64,000 nucleotides of DNA from contig CAKJYJ010000003.1 in the NCBI GenBank assembly GCA_918262735.1, forward strand, positions 272,883 to 336,882, written 5' to 3'. Source of the DNA: Clostridiales bacterium (GTDB lineage Bacteria > Bacillota > Clostridia > Christensenellales > UBA1242). A program made the translations under genes and the position numbers. This document shows positions 2,223 to 57,193 of this stretch, one piece after another. The notes under the pieces were generated by a model that ran no database searches, was not told where the DNA came from, and saw only the letters and a list, made by a program, of their open reading frames with translations. Within the stretch, counting starts at the first letter, position 1; every line of letters starts with the position of its first letter.

Positions 2223-3137
2223 ATGGGTGAATTCTTTAAGGAATTGTTTAAGGTGCTTGGCGATGCTTCAATTGACACCTTAAAAACAATTCCTATTTTA
2301 TTTGGCGTTTACATTCTTGTTAGCTATTTTGAGCATAACACTCACCGCTATCTAAACTTTTTAAGAAAGGCAAAAAAATATGGCCCATTTGTTGGGGCAA
2401 CCGTTGGAATTGTTCCACAATGCGGTTTTTCAGTTGCAATGGCAGACTTATATAATAAAAAAAGTATTAGTATTGGAACGTTAATTTCTGTTTTCATTGC
2501 AACAAGTGACGAAGCAATACCAATTTTATTCTCGAACTACAATTTTATTTTACCTCTACTCTGCTTAATAGCAATAAAATTTGTGTATGCAATAATATGT
2601 GGATACTTAATTGATTTTATTGTTAACATAAAAAGAAAAAAACAAGAGTATATTATTGACGCGGCGGTGTTGCCACATAGTGAACCTTGTGAATGTGGGC
2701 ATGAAGACCATGACCACGAGCATTCAAATCATTGCTGTGCAGATAATATATTTATTGATGCAATTAAACATACATTAAAAATTGCCCTGTTTATATTCAT
2801 TGTAAATATTGTACTTAATTCAATAATTGAATGGTCAGGATTTGAAATAACCTCATTAAATCAAATAAACACACTTGCCCAACCTTTTATTAGCTCACTT
2901 ATTGGTTTAATTCCAAATTGTGCAGCATCCGTCCTTCTTGTTGAAATATATATGGCGGGTGGAATGACTTTTGGAGCGCTTTTATCTGGACTCGCAACTG
3001 GGGCTGGTGTTGGTCTATTGGTATTATTCAAGCATAATAAAAATGCAATAGGAAATAATTTGTTAATTGTTGGCACTGTTTATATTCTTGGCTGCATAAT
3101 TGGTGTCATAGTTAATCTATTTCATGTGGTTTTATAA
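2223..3137 (+). CDS. Putative heavy-metal exporter (ArsP_2 / 'putative manganese transporter' family)
   Basis: 304 residues, about ten hydrophobic segments in two related halves. Each half carries the family's P-x-C signature: IVPQCGFSVAM near residue 65 and LIPNCAASVLL near residue 235, as in the 10-TM 'putative heavy-metal exporter' proteins related to ArsP permeases. A cytosolic-loop cluster of His, Cys and acidic residues near residues 155-172 (CECGHEDHDHEHSNHCC) is a plausible metal sensor or chaperone loop. GGAGG of the preceding gene's last codons serves as its ribosome site. The substrate (Mn, other metals or arsenical) is not defined by sequence. No yybP-ykoY-like leader is apparent upstream of the operon. 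Confidence 0.8.
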   Translation: MGEFFKELFKVLGDASIDTLKTIPILFGVYILVSYFEHNTHRYLNFLRKAKKYGPFVGATVGIVPQCGFSVAMADLYNKKSISIGTLISVFIATSDEAIPILFSNYNFILPLLCLIAIKFVYAIICGYLIDFIVNIKRKKQEYIIDAAVLPHSEPCECGHEDHDHEHSNHCCADNIFIDAIKHTLKIALFIFIVNIVLNSIIEWSGFEITSLNQINTLAQPFISSLIGLIPNCAASVLLVEIYMAGGMTFGALLSGLATGAGVGLLVLFKHNKNAIGNNLLIVGTVYILGCIIGVIVNLFHVVL

Positions 3138-3164
3138 ACAATATTAATAATATATATTAAACAC

Positions 3165-3204
3165 AAAAAACACTTGACAGCAATGCTCTATCAAGTGTTT
3201 TTTT
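3165..3204. terminator. Bidirectional terminator between the exporter gene and secF
   Basis: AACACTTGA pairs with TCAAGTGTT around a 13-nt loop. A-runs on the left and T-runs on the right allow it to serve both converging genes. Confidence 0.9.
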
Positions 3205-3221
3205 ATTGTTAATATAAATGC

Positions 3222-4214
3222 TTATTCCTTATTCTTTTTATACTTTCTAACATATGTTAATGCAAACAATGAAGGCGTTACGTAAAGACCAGTAAACACA
3301 ATAACCAATATTGCTTCAATATAAGCTAAACATAAATTAAATACTGGATTCATAATGTTAAATAGAGATAACACAACCAATGAAGCAACAGCAAAACAGG
3401 TAATAAATAAATATTTATCAAACCCATGTAAAATCGCATCATCAACTAACTCATAATTAGAAAGTTTTACATATTTTTCGTTTGTTTTCTCAAGCCTTTT
3501 TGCCCTACGTTCAAATAAGAATACATATAGTAAACTCAAAATTGATACAAATGGCAATAATGATAACGTAAATAATCCAAGTTGAACTCTGGTTACCATG
3601 ATTAAGGCAAATACCAAAACATTGTTATATATCGATGCTAAAAGACCAAGAACCGAAGCATGAAGCCCCATTCTGAAAGCCATATACAAACATATTGCAA
3701 GTGTGGTTACAAATGTTGCCAAAATACTAGAAACTATTGTCCACGAAGAAACCTGCCCTTCAAATGTGGAAACAACAACCAAATTTCTATTTTCAATTTC
3801 CTCGGCACTTGTTTCTGTATAAAATTTATTAATCAAGCCTTCTTTTATGCCATCTACCAATGCTTGCTCATTTGCCTCATTTGAATTATATGCGATTTTT
3901 ACAACAAAAACTTTATTATAAGTTGTTAAATCATTTTCAATAGAATAAATATTTCCACGAACATTATTTTCTTCTAGCACAATATCAACATCTGCCTTCA
4001 GTTGGTTATAACCACCAAAATCTTCAAAATCCGTTGTCTGTGACATTACTGAAGCAATAACGCCACCCTTAAATTCCATACCCTTGTTAAAACCAAATGC
4101 AAACATAAACACAAGTGCCAAAACGGCAACAACGGCAGGAACAATCAAAGCTTTATACAATTTCTTAGAAAAACTATAATTATTTTTCACTATACATGTT
4201 TTTAACTTACTCAT
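3222..4214 (-). CDS. secF: Protein translocase subunit SecF
   Basis: 330 residues. One N-terminal transmembrane helix (about 20-42) is followed by a GMEFKGG motif (the family's G-x-D/E-F-x-G-G), a periplasm-facing type domain of about 110 residues, then five C-terminal helices, matching SecF. With SecD it uses the proton-motive force to help proteins through SecYEG. Its ATG lies inside the last codons of secD (8-nt overlap), so translation is coupled. The length is near the family norm. It converges on the metal-exporter gene across a shared terminator. Confidence 0.9.
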   Translation of the reverse strand: MSKLKTCIVKNNYSFSKKLYKALIVPAVVAVLALVFMFAFGFNKGMEFKGGVIASVMSQTTDFEDFGGYNQLKADVDIVLEENNVRGNIYSIENDLTTYNKVFVVKIAYNSNEANEQALVDGIKEGLINKFYTETSAEEIENRNLVVVSTFEGQVSSWTIVSSILATFVTTLAICLYMAFRMGLHASVLGLLASIYNNVLVFALIMVTRVQLGLFTLSLLPFVSILSLLYVFLFERRAKRLEKTNEKYVKLSNYELVDDAILHGFDKYLFITCFAVASLVVLSLFNIMNPVFNLCLAYIEAILVIVFTGLYVTPSLFALTYVRKYKKNKE

Positions 4215-51857: not shown

Positions 51858-51945
51858 GGAAAGTTGGCTGAGCGGTCGAAAGCGGCGGTCTTGAAAACCG
51901 TTGTAGTGAAAGCTACCTGGGGTTCGAATCCCTAACTTTCCGCCA
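51858..51945 (+). tRNA. tRNA-Ser (UGA anticodon)
   Basis: Acceptor GGAAAGT/ACTTTCC, anticodon stem GCGGT/ACCGT around CTTGAAA (anticodon TGA at 51892-51894), a long class II variable arm with GTAGTGAAAGCTAC, T-arm TGGGG-TTCGAAT-CCCTA, discriminator G and encoded CCA (51943-51945). Its 3' part recurs at 56997-57155. Confidence 0.97.
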
Positions 51946-51956
51946 AACGATACTAG

Positions 51957-51985
51957 TACGAAACAGAACTCTGTTTCGTATTTTT
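51957..51985 (+). terminator. tRNA-Ser terminator
   Basis: TACGAAACAG pairs with CTGTTTCGTA (10 bp, AACT loop), then TTTTTATTT. Confidence 0.9.
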
Positions 51986-52031
51986 ATTTGTGGGATTGTT
52001 TTGGAATCATTTTTCCATTTAAAAGATATGT

Positions 52032-52085: not shown

Positions 52086-53804
52086 TTAATCTTTTGTAAA
52101 AATTTTCAATAACGGGTTATTTGTTTCTGAGAATAACCACAAATTTTCATCCCAATTATTTATAACGAATTGTAAAATGTATAATTTGTTTTTTTCCATC
52201 CATGATGAATCAATTAAATTATCCGCTAAAACACTTTGTTCTTCATCACAATAACATGTATCATATGATGTGCCTGTAGCATTAGCTATAAATGCAGAAC
52301 CATATGAATTATTTATTATAGATGATTGAGCTGAAACATTTGACGTAGAATAACAATAGTGATAACTTCCGGATGCATCGTATGCAACAAATCCACCCGC
52401 GTAAGCTTTTCCACAATCGCTAGATGTTGATTGAGCACTTACACTACCTGTAGAATAAGAATTAAATATATCAACTTTACCCATTGTTCTAAACGTTTGT
52501 CCTATAAATCCTCCCGCAAACGAAGAGTATGATGCTGAATTATTTGATAATTCAATATTAACATTTGAATAGCAGTTCTTAATACTAATGTTTGAAGTAT
52601 TAGAATGTGCATTGGCGCATCCAATTAAACCTCCAGCGCAAATATTTGAAACACTGCTTGATAGTGCTTGTATTTGTATGCTTCCAGTAGTAAAACAACA
52701 GTCAACTTGTGCAGAATATTCTATTCTTCCGATTAGTGCTCCGGCAGTTACTGAATCTAAATTAGTAAGAGAAAAATTGATGCTTATATTTTCAATGCCT
52801 AAATTACTTATTTTAGCGTTTGAAATCATCCCAAAAAAACCAGCACACACACTTTCGGTATTAATTCTAAAATTTGATATTACATACCCATTTCCATCAA
52901 ATTCACCAGTAAAACAATGCTCAAAACTCCCAATTGGTGTCCAATTACAGTTATTTAAATCAATATTGGAATATAACTTTATTTTTTTTGACCATGAATT
53001 GGAGTTGCTCAGCACATCAATAAAATTAGAAATTGAAGTTATTTCATCTTCATTAATCATAGCAAGTGCATTTGTCCATCTTGCATATAATTTGGTATTA
53101 CTTGCTGGCATTTTATTAAATGAAAATTTTGTGTTAAAGTTATTGTCGGTATACCAATCAACAAATTGATATCCTGCTTTAGTTGGACTGTCTGGTTTTA
53201 TTATTGTCGTCCCAAAATAATCTGTAATAGAGGAAACAGAACTTCCGCCATTACTTTCAAAGCTTAAAGTGTATTGGTTAATGGAAAACTTTGCATACAG
53301 TTCTAGATTTCCCATTGTTCCTTTACTTATTTTTTCTGTCTTATTATGATATTCACTATCGGCATACCAACCATCAAATGTATATCCTTGTTTAACAGCA
53401 TCACTCAAATAAAAATTACTCTCTATTGTATAATATGTGGGGTTATTGTTTGTTCCGCCATCTAAATGATAGTTGATATAATATTGATTTTCTTGCCACT
53501 TTGCATAGAGTTTTATATTGCCTTTTGCACCTTTTGAAATGCTATTGATGCTTACTGCGAAAATGCTATCAATATACCAGCCGCAAAATGTATAACCATT
53601 TCGACTCGGTGAATATAAAACGATCTCATCTTCACAAGTATAAGAGAATACATTGTTAGGGTTGTTTATGCCGCCGTTTAAGTCATACTGAATTGAATAA
53701 ACCTCAGTTTCTTCAGTTGTGTCTTGATTGTCGCAAGCAGTAAAGATTAACAATACTGGCAAACAAATAATCATGGCAAATATAATTTTAATATAATTTT
53801 TCAT
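52086..53804 (-). CDS. InlB B-repeat (Flg_new) surface lipoprotein
   Basis: 572 residues. Signal ending FTAC (lipidated Cys 24), then three beta-grasp Listeria-Bacteroides repeats (about 36-105, 106-175, 176-243), each of the form YxIxYxLNGG ... GYTFxGWYxDSxF ... LYAKW. The remainder (about 250-560) is Ser/Asn-rich beta-helix with GLUG-like elements such as FTGEFDGNGYVISNF and NICAGGLIGCANAHSNTSN. A surface adhesin or enzyme-accessory role is likely. It lies 28 nt after a nuclease-like gene and both are within the stretch bounded by tRNA-Ser repeats. Confidence 0.9.
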   Translation of the reverse strand: MKNYIKIIFAMIICLPVLLIFTACDNQDTTEETEVYSIQYDLNGGINNPNNVFSYTCEDEIVLYSPSRNGYTFCGWYIDSIFAVSINSISKGAKGNIKLYAKWQENQYYINYHLDGGTNNNPTYYTIESNFYLSDAVKQGYTFDGWYADSEYHNKTEKISKGTMGNLELYAKFSINQYTLSFESNGGSSVSSITDYFGTTIIKPDSPTKAGYQFVDWYTDNNFNTKFSFNKMPASNTKLYARWTNALAMINEDEITSISNFIDVLSNSNSWSKKIKLYSNIDLNNCNWTPIGSFEHCFTGEFDGNGYVISNFRINTESVCAGFFGMISNAKISNLGIENISINFSLTNLDSVTAGALIGRIEYSAQVDCCFTTGSIQIQALSSSVSNICAGGLIGCANAHSNTSNISIKNCYSNVNIELSNNSASYSSFAGGFIGQTFRTMGKVDIFNSYSTGSVSAQSTSSDCGKAYAGGFVAYDASGSYHYCYSTSNVSAQSSIINNSYGSAFIANATGTSYDTCYCDEEQSVLADNLIDSSWMEKNKLYILQFVINNWDENLWLFSETNNPLLKIFTKD

Positions 53805-53832: not shown

Positions 53833-54528
53833 TTAGCTAGCAATGTTTTTCTTTGTTATTTCCAGGTGTTCAACAATATCTCTTGCTTTACAACCCATCG
53901 CTACATAGTCAGTTTTATTAATAATAAATTCTCCTATAAATTCTTTTTTTTCATTAAAAATAATTAATCTGTTTGCAGCATTCAAAAAGATTATATCAAA
54001 ATCGTGTTCTTTAAACTTTTCTTTTAGTTTTGATTCAAGTTTTCCATAATTTGGATTTATTGGTGGATTCTCATTAAATAAAAACAAACCTAATTTTTCA
54101 AATCCAGCTTTTTTATAATTTGATAATTTTTCAATTTTTTGCTTATAGGCATTAATTACATTTTGTATTCTTTCATCATCACTCATTCCATGTTTAATCA
54201 TTGTACCAGGGAATTTAATATGAATACCACATCGATTTAAACTTTGTAACGCATTTGTACGTTTTGTGTCTTTTATTGTTGGATTGATATATGTGGCAAA
54301 ATTACCATCAATGTATCCCTCGGATTCAGATTTTATATTAGTAACCTCAATGCCTAAAGATTTATCGATACTTTGAAGATCTGGTTTATCTAAACACTCC
54401 AAACATTTATATTTTTCATCGTAACTGATTAACATTAATCGAGCCCATTGTTCTTCCATTTTATCCCATAATCGTTTTGTTAATGGTTTATCAAAAACCA
54501 TTTTATAATATTTTTCTTCAATCTGCAT
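53833..54528 (-). CDS. Putative PD-(D/E)XK-fold protein, unknown function
   Basis: 231 residues. CLECLDKPDLQSIDKSLGIEV followed by TN gives an Asp in a KPD-turn and, 11-12 residues on, GIEVT, the Asp...Glu-x-Thr/Lys spacing seen in nucleases of the PD-(D/E)XK superfamily where the last residue is often Thr. The C-terminal half (FDIIFLNAANRLIIFNEK) looks like further alpha/beta core. No signal peptide. The start at 54528 is marked by a TATAAT box 6 nt upstream and no Shine-Dalgarno. Nuclease activity is inferred from one motif only. It shares an operon with the lipoprotein gene. Confidence 0.55.
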   Translation of the reverse strand: MQIEEKYYKMVFDKPLTKRLWDKMEEQWARLMLISYDEKYKCLECLDKPDLQSIDKSLGIEVTNIKSESEGYIDGNFATYINPTIKDTKRTNALQSLNRCGIHIKFPGTMIKHGMSDDERIQNVINAYKQKIEKLSNYKKAGFEKLGLFLFNENPPINPNYGKLESKLKEKFKEHDFDIIFLNAANRLIIFNEKKEFIGEFIINKTDYVAMGCKARDIVEHLEITKKNIAS

Positions 54529-54982: not shown

Positions 54983-56791
54983 ATGTTAGGAGATAAAATA
55001 GCCCAACTTCGTAAAATGAAAAATCTTACTCAAGTAGATTTAAGTAAAATACTAAATGTTTCCCCACAAGCAGTTTCTAAATGGGAAAAAAATGTATCTC
55101 AACCCAATTTTGATGTTTTAACTCAAATTGCAGAATATTTTAATGTATCCTTGGATTATTTTAGAGAAGAAGATAAACAGGTTATAAATGATGTTAAGCC
55201 ACAAAAAGAAGTTGAAGTAAAAAACAAGTTTACTTTTTCAAATTTTTTATATAATTACAGACAATGGTTTTTATCAGGATTGTCTTTTATTATAATCTTG
55301 TTGTTTTTCTGTAATTTTGCAGTTGTAGATTATCCAATTATTAAGTTCTCATTCAATGGTTTTCAATCAATCATAGCATTATTTATGGGTGAAGGATTTA
55401 TGAATTATCTATATGGATTAAATGCTTCTTCATATAATGAAAATTTAACAACCATAACTTCTTTTATTTGTATTTGTTATGCTTTGCTTTTAATTACTTC
55501 AATCAGTATTATCATAAGAAATATGATAAACTATTTTACCAAAAAGGAAAATGTTAATACTCTTAATTTAAGTAATGCAATTTTTTCTTTATTGTTTATG
55601 TTCTCGCTAATCGTTTTACGATTTATTTTAGGCAAACATTTTTCCAGCAATTTTGGAATAGCAAAAGTTTCAGCGATTGGAATATGGTTTATGCTAGCTT
55701 TAATATTGCTTGTTTTCTCGTTGACTTTATATTTTAAGAGATGTAAGTACAATAATGAAATATATGCAAATGAAAATATATCTTTTAGGAAGAATTATTT
55801 GCAATACTTAATTTTGTTAATTTGTTTAATGATAGTTAGTTTTTCAATTCCATCAATAGTGTTTAATATAAATGAAGGTGTTGTTTATAGTTTGTATCAA
55901 GCACCAGAATTAAAGTATAGTGCATATCAACAGGTTATCATTTCTATTATTGGTATTGTGATTTTACTTATCAATTATTTCAATAATAAAGTTCAAAAAC
56001 TTGGTATTTGGGGTTTAATAACAGGTTTAATACTTTTAACAGGACAAATATATAACACATATTTTACGACTTATACAGTTCAATCACAAATAAGTTCTTA
56101 TACTGCAGCTTTTTATATTCCACTTGTTTTATTTTTGGCAATGATTTACATATCAATACAACATATCGTATTGTTAAGAAAAGTAAAACAAGAATATAAT
56201 AATAATTTGAATTTTCAAGCAGAATTTGAAAAATATTATTTAGAAAAAGAAAAGCATATTAACACAAGTGGAACTTGGCTTTCTGTTATTTTTGGAGTAG
56301 GGTTAATTATAATTGGTATTTTCATTGGTTATTTTATTAGACGATTTATTGAAAACAGACCTTTAAGTGATGGGATTAAAATTCCTATTATCATTATGAT
56401 AGTGGGAATATGTATGTTAGTCACTCCATTGATATTTGCATTACAAAAAAACAAAAAAAACTGTTTAATAAAAAATCAATACATTGCCCCAATTGAAACA
56501 GCTTTAGAAATATCAATTCCGACAGGTTTGTTTATAGGAATGGGATACTTTTTTGGTATGTTTTCAAACTCCGCTATGAGTATGCTTTGGGTTGGTATTA
56601 TATGGCTTTTCGGCGGCTTTATTGCTAATATGAACGAAAACGTTATATTGAAAAACTTTTATGTTGAAAAAAATATTATATCATTTGAACAAAATGAACA
56701 AGCAATATCCAAAAAAAGAACTTTTATTTTACAGGTGTCATTATTGTTTATTTTAACAATAACAGCCATTTTGTTGTTCACATTTTTATAG
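54983..56791 (+). CDS. Xre-type helix-turn-helix domain fused to a polytopic membrane protein
   Basis: 602 residues. Residues 1-65 are a Cro/CI-type DNA-binding domain (IAQLRKMKNLTQVDLSKIL, then VSPQAVSKWEKN). After a charged linker (66-85) about 13-14 hydrophobic helices fill residues 90-600, with a cytosolic-looking coiled segment near 400-425. Such fusions occur in Firmicutes as membrane-tethered regulators, but the family of this membrane part is not one I recognise. AAAGGAG lies 7 nt before the ATG. It is convergent-free and stands alone inside the tRNA-Ser-bounded stretch. Confidence 0.85.
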   Translation: MLGDKIAQLRKMKNLTQVDLSKILNVSPQAVSKWEKNVSQPNFDVLTQIAEYFNVSLDYFREEDKQVINDVKPQKEVEVKNKFTFSNFLYNYRQWFLSGLSFIIILLFFCNFAVVDYPIIKFSFNGFQSIIALFMGEGFMNYLYGLNASSYNENLTTITSFICICYALLLITSISIIIRNMINYFTKKENVNTLNLSNAIFSLLFMFSLIVLRFILGKHFSSNFGIAKVSAIGIWFMLALILLVFSLTLYFKRCKYNNEIYANENISFRKNYLQYLILLICLMIVSFSIPSIVFNINEGVVYSLYQAPELKYSAYQQVIISIIGIVILLINYFNNKVQKLGIWGLITGLILLTGQIYNTYFTTYTVQSQISSYTAAFYIPLVLFLAMIYISIQHIVLLRKVKQEYNNNLNFQAEFEKYYLEKEKHINTSGTWLSVIFGVGLIIIGIFIGYFIRRFIENRPLSDGIKIPIIIMIVGICMLVTPLIFALQKNKKNCLIKNQYIAPIETALEISIPTGLFIGMGYFFGMFSNSAMSMLWVGIIWLFGGFIANMNENVILKNFYVEKNIISFEQNEQAISKKRTFILQVSLLFILTITAILLFTFL

Positions 56792-56996: not shown

Positions 56997-57155
56997 CTTG
57001 AAAACCGTTGTAGTGAAAGCTACCTGGGGTTCGTTCCTGTCGGAACCTGACCGAAACATAGTTTCTCCCGGCTTGCCATTTCGCTTTGCTCATTCTCTAA
57101 AAACTTGCCACCGGCAACTTTTCTATACGAGTCGCCCCCTAACTTTCCGCCAAAC
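56997..57155 (+). repeat. 3' fragment of tRNA-Ser split by a structured 103-nt insertion
   Basis: 56997-57033 equals 51890-51926 of tRNA-Ser (37 of 37 nt, anticodon loop to T-loop) and 57137-57155 equals its 3' end through CCA and AAAC. Between them 103 nt (57034-57136) replace the T-loop AAT. The insert, with its flank, forms three hairpins: GTTCC/GGAAC (57033-57046), GAAAC/GTTTC (57053-57065), TTGCC/GGCAA (57105-57117). The 5' half of the tRNA is absent, so it is not a functional serine tRNA. Confidence 0.9.
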
Positions 57156-57157
57156 AT

Positions 57158-57193
57158 AACGTAAATCTTATGAACTGGGATTTACGTTTTTTT
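57158..57193 (+). terminator. Terminator after the tRNA-Ser fragment
   Basis: AACGTAAATC pairs with GATTTACGTT (10 bp), followed by T-rich sequence. Confidence 0.85.

Follow-up and report, generated by a model that had tools for sequence, protein, structure and literature searches.

The sublocations of islands that target tRNA and tmRNA genes were reportedly treated by Williams in 2002. The tRNA islands collected in Islander regenerate their target gene, leave a displaced fragment at the far end, cross over at the anticodon or T-loop and form tandem arrays; Islander filters for an integrase (PMC4383910). The element presented here, E, was found at the junctions of short units which share with these islands the intact target and displaced fragment in the same orientation, the crossover at the anticodon or T loop and the arrangement in tandem. 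The units differ from islands in that they contain no integrase gene and may be as short as approximately 150 bp, and in that each junction carries E and an inverted tRNA arm. Due to the integrase filter, such units would be missed by Islander.

Integron arrays resemble the E units as well, being composed of short cassettes that line up behind a single target and terminate in a foldable site. The outer arms of integron attC are inverted copies of the target core, an arrangement also present in E sites, but not in the copy of the window (the whole stretch of 64,000 nucleotides that was analysed). On the other hand, the target of E units is a tRNA arm, no GTTRRRY/RYYYAAC boxes were seen by inspection of the copies, the core of E sites being the tRNA arm GTTCRAnTCCC, the core hairpin of E is conserved in sequence rather than variable, and no IntI was found among the Xer proteins tested. 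Since neither IntI nor the R-box consensus was found, the system was not filed as an integron, though its working resembles that of an integron array. REP sequences and Rickettsia palindromic elements are, like E, approximately 100 nt long, palindromic, geneless and present in many copies, but E is tied to tRNA and tmRNA genes and to replacement tRNA ends. Gut-1 RNA (RF01706) occurs in the same environment, and two copies were found within duplicated units at a tRNA-Ala gene (L175:570-643 and 1010-1083); there it is cargo and distinct from E.

We read E as a folded, attC-like attachment site; tRNA and tmRNA genes would house short cassettes whose junctions it marks, and a recombinase acting in trans would serve it. 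We give this reading a probability of roughly 0.5. The family seems not to have been described previously, as no description of E-type elements was found in the literature outside subscription journals and bioRxiv.

The tRNA-Ser locus of the window

The locus comprises the following features (positions in the window).

51858-51945, + strand: intact tRNA-Ser(UGA), interpreted as the target gene after regeneration (ARAGORN; Rfam tRNA, 57.2 bits)
51955-51982, + strand: terminator of the intact tRNA-Ser, part of a leader of approximately 75 nt (51946-52020) common to a gene-bearing tRNA-Ser cassette in L166
51946-56996, no strand: putative body of the inserted unit, 27.5% GC, of inferred extent, bounded by the direct repeats 51890-51926 and 56997-57033
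52086-53804, - strand: probable cargo, secreted or lipoprotein-like protein with Listeria-Bacteroides repeats (PF09479; Pfam 3.6e-43)
53833-54528, - strand: probable cargo, 231-aa protein without match in Pfam, NCBIfam and PADLOC
54983-56791, + strand: probable cargo, 602-aa HTH (PF01381) protein, with membrane segments by inspection
56997-57033, + strand: displaced tRNA-Ser fragment, which runs from the anticodon loop into the T-loop and forms the left repeat half (37/37 identity)
57034-57136, - strand: E element, C-type, in the T-loop, with the core reading on the - strand; partial matches in L002-L006, C-type relatives in L189, L166, L190 and L200
57033-57046, no strand: 5'-terminal hairpin of E, GTTCCTGTCGGAAC, folding position confirmed
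57053-57065, no strand: hairpin GAAACATAGTTTC of E, variable in sequence among relatives
57100-57122, - strand: conserved core AAAAGTTGCCGGTGGCAAGTTTT (G000:C3:329982-330004(-)), matched in no fewer than 112 stretches from other genomes
57137-57155, + strand: displaced tRNA-Ser 3' end with CCA (19/19 identity)
57158-57188, + strand: terminator behind the displaced fragment, unlike the one that follows the intact tRNA

The preliminary description had taken the locus for a tRNA-Ser 3' fragment interrupted by a folded insert, and its account of the sequence was reproduced. The repeats are exact, with 51890-51926 identical to 56997-57033 over 37 nt and 51930-51948 identical to 57137-57155 over 19 nt, and the insert at 57034-57136 is 103 nt long and replaces AAT of the T-loop. 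The insert is GC-richer than its surroundings (48.5% compared to 27% for the flanking 1 kb) and ranks in the top 0.4% among windows of 103 nt. The three hairpins described in it, at 57033-57046, 57053-57065 and 57105-57117, are present, as is the terminator after CCA. A group I intron was rightly dismissed: the insert is too short, lies in the wrong place and has no Rfam match. The intact tRNA was called by both ARAGORN and Rfam, the displaced fragment by neither. Folded as RNA, the whole fragment was only modestly better than chance (z -1.65), and the structural case rests on the relatives.

Among all other fetched loci the leader behind the intact tRNA-Ser had a single match, the start of the tRNA-Ser unit in L166 (E 7.8e-10), and without the tRNA part this match scored 75 against a shuffled maximum of 49. 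The unit in L166 is gene-bearing, and the match supports the reading of the 5.1 kb behind the tRNA-Ser of the window as one such inserted unit. No integrase gene was detected inside it in the ORF and Pfam check. For an empty version of the site we looked at the synteny of the right-hand gene, which was not conserved even within the genus, and the orthologous tRNA-Ser(UGA) genes of relatives had no E in the approximately 330 nt read downstream.

Related elements at other tRNA and tmRNA genes

In the source genome (G000; 1.26 Mb, 15 contigs) the insert as query gave one full match, as well as partial matches beside tRNA-Lys, tmRNA, tRNA-Asn, tRNA-Arg and tRNA-Gly. A second query, made from the copies of the same genome, added tRNA-Glu, tRNA-Leu and a second tRNA-Arg. 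At least 10 related elements, the insert among them, were recorded there, every one at a tRNA or tmRNA gene (Ser, Lys, Asn, two Arg, Gly, three Glu, Leu and tmRNA), and each copy lies between an intact gene and a second copy of the 3' end of the same gene. The three units at tRNA-Glu form an array with a 155-bp period. A different element, type B (GGGCTCCCGAAAA..TTTTTGGGAAGAGGAAAAAC..GTTTTGACGA), was observed at tRNA sites of this kind in the source genome (L055:593-792, L054:8434-8800, L069:1091-1327, L055:6053-6307 and L056:1706-2130), and in two cases it appears to be nested in the hairpin of an A-type E.

A survey of the genus, family and order gave matches in 12 of 40 genomes, mostly beside tRNA genes; the stretches fetched from genomes were those around tRNA genes. 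Copies at other tRNA genes were thus recovered by the search against related genomes that the preliminary description had proposed, and the outcome of one orthologous site only is excluded. The exact 23-nt hairpin core, AAAAGTTGCCNGTGGCAAGTTTT, was scanned for in a collection with one genome per species, and the at least 112 stretches given in the list above are a lower bound. Among the matches listed, the carriers were mostly gut or rumen Clostridia, and tRNA-associated cores were also found in Alphaproteobacteria (L106, L122, L156) and Gastranaerophilales (L132, L160). Sixteen types of tRNA and tmRNA genes were associated with the core. An intact gene of this kind lay within 200 nt of 74 out of 132 core positions and within 600 nt of 88, compared to 7.0% and 15.6% of the bases of the same loci, respectively. 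Of 391 genomes from the class, 8 contained the core, with 19 matches in total, and a permuted hairpin matched once.

Some core matches, in Treponema, Lachnospiraceae, Kuenenbacteria and a planctomycete, lay away from tRNA genes, which counts against the attachment-site reading; those outside the gut lineages may be chance terminators. The Treponema copies (L153, L173, L117) share a longer common element, not at tRNA genes, which in two of them adjoins a phosphate-dikinase-like gene. Plasmids searched with a Glu-type site gave no match, and a single core match was obtained in viral contigs (L210), in a fetched stretch without tRNA.

Anatomy and folding of the sites

Three sequence types, A, C and D, were distinguished, all with a common core hairpin. 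The usual layout is an intact tRNA, its terminator, an inverted tRNA-arm copy, E, a direct copy of the tRNA 3' end and a second terminator. Within the fetched loci, the 3' end of 75 tRNA and tmRNA genes recurred at a distance of up to 6 kb, a set which includes a few ordinary neighbouring tRNA genes, and most of these copies were preceded by E or an E-like insert. An inverted arm copy of at least 10 nt to the same tRNA was present in 47 of the 75 cases, compared to 5.2% of pairings with other tRNAs and none of 75 shuffles. It was mostly a copy of the T-arm; the anticodon arm was used in Lys, Ile, Met and Gly copies, and the D-arm, by inspection, in one Leu copy (L069). Crossover was located at the anticodon or T loop in the copies examined, with the exception of this D-arm case. 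Mirror cases were also observed (L078, L075, L080, L085), with E upstream of the tRNA, and with the promoter region and the tRNA 5' half copied.

The earlier guess of a small mobile palindromic element targeting T-loops can be kept in large part, since the source genome and many others contain related inserts in further tRNA and tmRNA genes, but the anticodon and D arms are occupied as well. It also missed that E ends a larger unit with a replacement tRNA 3' end, a terminator and sometimes genes, and that an inverted tRNA-arm copy is usual.

The window copy is atypical, as its direct repeat starts in the anticodon loop and the inverted arm is absent, and it may therefore represent a unit or older island in the anticodon loop, plus a separate E in the T-loop of the leftover. 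Both traits, the first being a classical crossover site (PMC4383910), fit a different explanation, in which islands of the Islander type with tyrosine integrases were reduced to their ends. The stretch in the window would then be an island of this type that entered tRNA-Ser at the anticodon loop and decayed, and E would be a palindrome of unrelated origin, settled in dispensable tRNA leftovers. Ordinary integrases do adjoin tRNA-Arg genes of the source genome. We consider this explanation improbable because the junction carries E in the majority of the 75 cases, including units of approximately 150 bp that are too small for an island, because the inverted arms match the specific tRNA, and because the units form arrays.

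Turning back to E as a folded attachment site, A-type sites folded as DNA gave a hairpin junction in which inverted arm and tRNA arm pair to form the outer stem (z -3.0, -5.2 and -7.7), and E of the window copy folded weakly (z -1.1). Compensatory change, with both sides changed and pairing kept, was found in 10 of 25 predicted pairs of the D-type, and mutual pairing of the core flanks was 5.29 versus 4.11 for re-paired controls (sd 0.08). Because the arms of E covary, its folding is under selection. E had the same orientation as the tRNA in 60 cases and the opposite orientation in 28, which argues for a function as DNA and makes a tRNA-derived structured RNA, the other proposal of the preliminary description, less likely. 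Covarying stems would also suit a structured or ribozyme-like RNA expressed from tRNA fragments, but such an RNA would hardly be found in both orientations, the downstream copies sit 3' of the tRNA terminator, and Rfam covariance models gave no match to E, neither at gathering threshold in the window and in seven loci of the source genome nor at E<=5 in eight loci. We regard it as very unlikely.

Arrays, gene-bearing units and the search for the enzyme

Empty and filled sites were found at a tRNA-Met/tRNA-Glu pair which is orthologous in G000-G003. The tRNA-Glu site is empty in the congeners G001 and G002, with no E in approximately 420 nt read downstream, and holds one unit in G003 and three in the source genome. 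All units of the latter array have the same terminator, and a different terminator follows the last displaced fragment; at tRNA-Glu of G032, which has a single unit, one terminator precedes E and a different one follows it. Insertion of a unit that brings along a 3' end and a terminator would produce such differences. In the source genome, at tRNA-Gly, tRNA-Leu and one tRNA-Arg, the terminator after the displaced copy is also unlike that after the intact gene, and neither this nor the case of G032 is given by plain local duplication. Other arrays, with near-identical flanks, may have grown by local duplication. One and the same terminator-bearing tail was seen 3' of CCA in several tRNA-Leu copies and one tRNA-Arg copy (L071:9486-9615, L069:1328-1467, L055:6308-6378, L054:1606-1762, L209:1423-1487 and 2577-2649). 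Several units carry genes: a lipoprotein gene in the tRNA-Ser unit of L166, an HTH protein and one other in the tRNA-Leu unit of L209, and two lipoproteins with one further protein in the unit of L106.

Arrays such as those of Arg L062 and the Glu units, where the flanks are near-identical, the two orientations of E and the mirror cases, in which promoter region and tRNA 5' half are duplicated, would be compatible with a transposable palindromic repeat, REP- or MITE-like, which targets tRNA-arm hairpins, the tRNA and terminator duplications being by-products of tandem duplication provoked by the hairpin. The differing terminators before and after E at several loci and the existence of units with genes are at odds with this, and the enzymes are lacking: no Y1 transposase was found in any of five genomes tested, nor a reverse transcriptase in three of them, G000, G005 and G012. 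We find this explanation unlikely, and mobilization by Y1 (IS200/IS605 or REP) or by reverse transcriptase was rejected on account of the absent genes.

If E is an attachment site, a cassette would start with the replacement 3' part of the tRNA and a terminator, carry genes or none, and end with the tRNA-arm copy in inverted orientation, followed by E. It would enter the loop of a tRNA arm, most often the T-loop, whereby the tRNA would be regenerated and the old 3' end displaced beyond E. The substrate may be single-stranded E, with inverted arm and tRNA arm paired as the outer stem as in integron attC, and the cassettes would move as circles, although neither a circle nor an excision was observed. 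As the inverted arm is matched to the target, the mechanism can be put to the test, since the arm should indicate the tRNA into which a site may insert. Tentatively, we suggest an undescribed integron-like system, in which tRNA and tmRNA arms would serve as insertion platform, the outer stem of the site would be supplied by the target tRNA arm, the enzyme would be encoded elsewhere, and transfer would take place between gut phyla. If true, cassettes that escape island finders, being too small and integrase-free, dock at the tRNA and tmRNA genes of uncultured gut bacteria. The system would then provide a route by which different phyla exchange genes, and would add an independent example of attachment at a folded site.

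A profile from the recombinases of this order detected no tyrosine recombinase in the vicinity of tRNA-associated cores within the stretches fetched, from which we infer a recombinase in trans, host Xer included. It would most likely be of the tyrosine type, since the anticodon and T loops of tRNA are the usual crossover sites of these enzymes. In L108, with a core not at a tRNA, a tyrosine recombinase gene lies approximately 1.7 kb away. The viral contig L210 has the exact core at 2558-2580, approximately 400 nt downstream of a tyrosine recombinase gene (2960-3835); this pairing is an isolated case and proves nothing. The genome G005 has several arrays and a single tyrosine recombinase (the only PF00589 match), a XerS-like host protein. 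The XerS-like proteins of the source genome and G005, which were the Xer proteins tested, scored 79.7 and 71.9 bits, respectively, with the integron-integrase model (cut-off 265), and neither was thus recognized as IntI. XerS-like recombinases of these small genomes are located at L215:1027-2091 and L216:1051-2094, and the gene of G005 adjoins a lexA-like gene.
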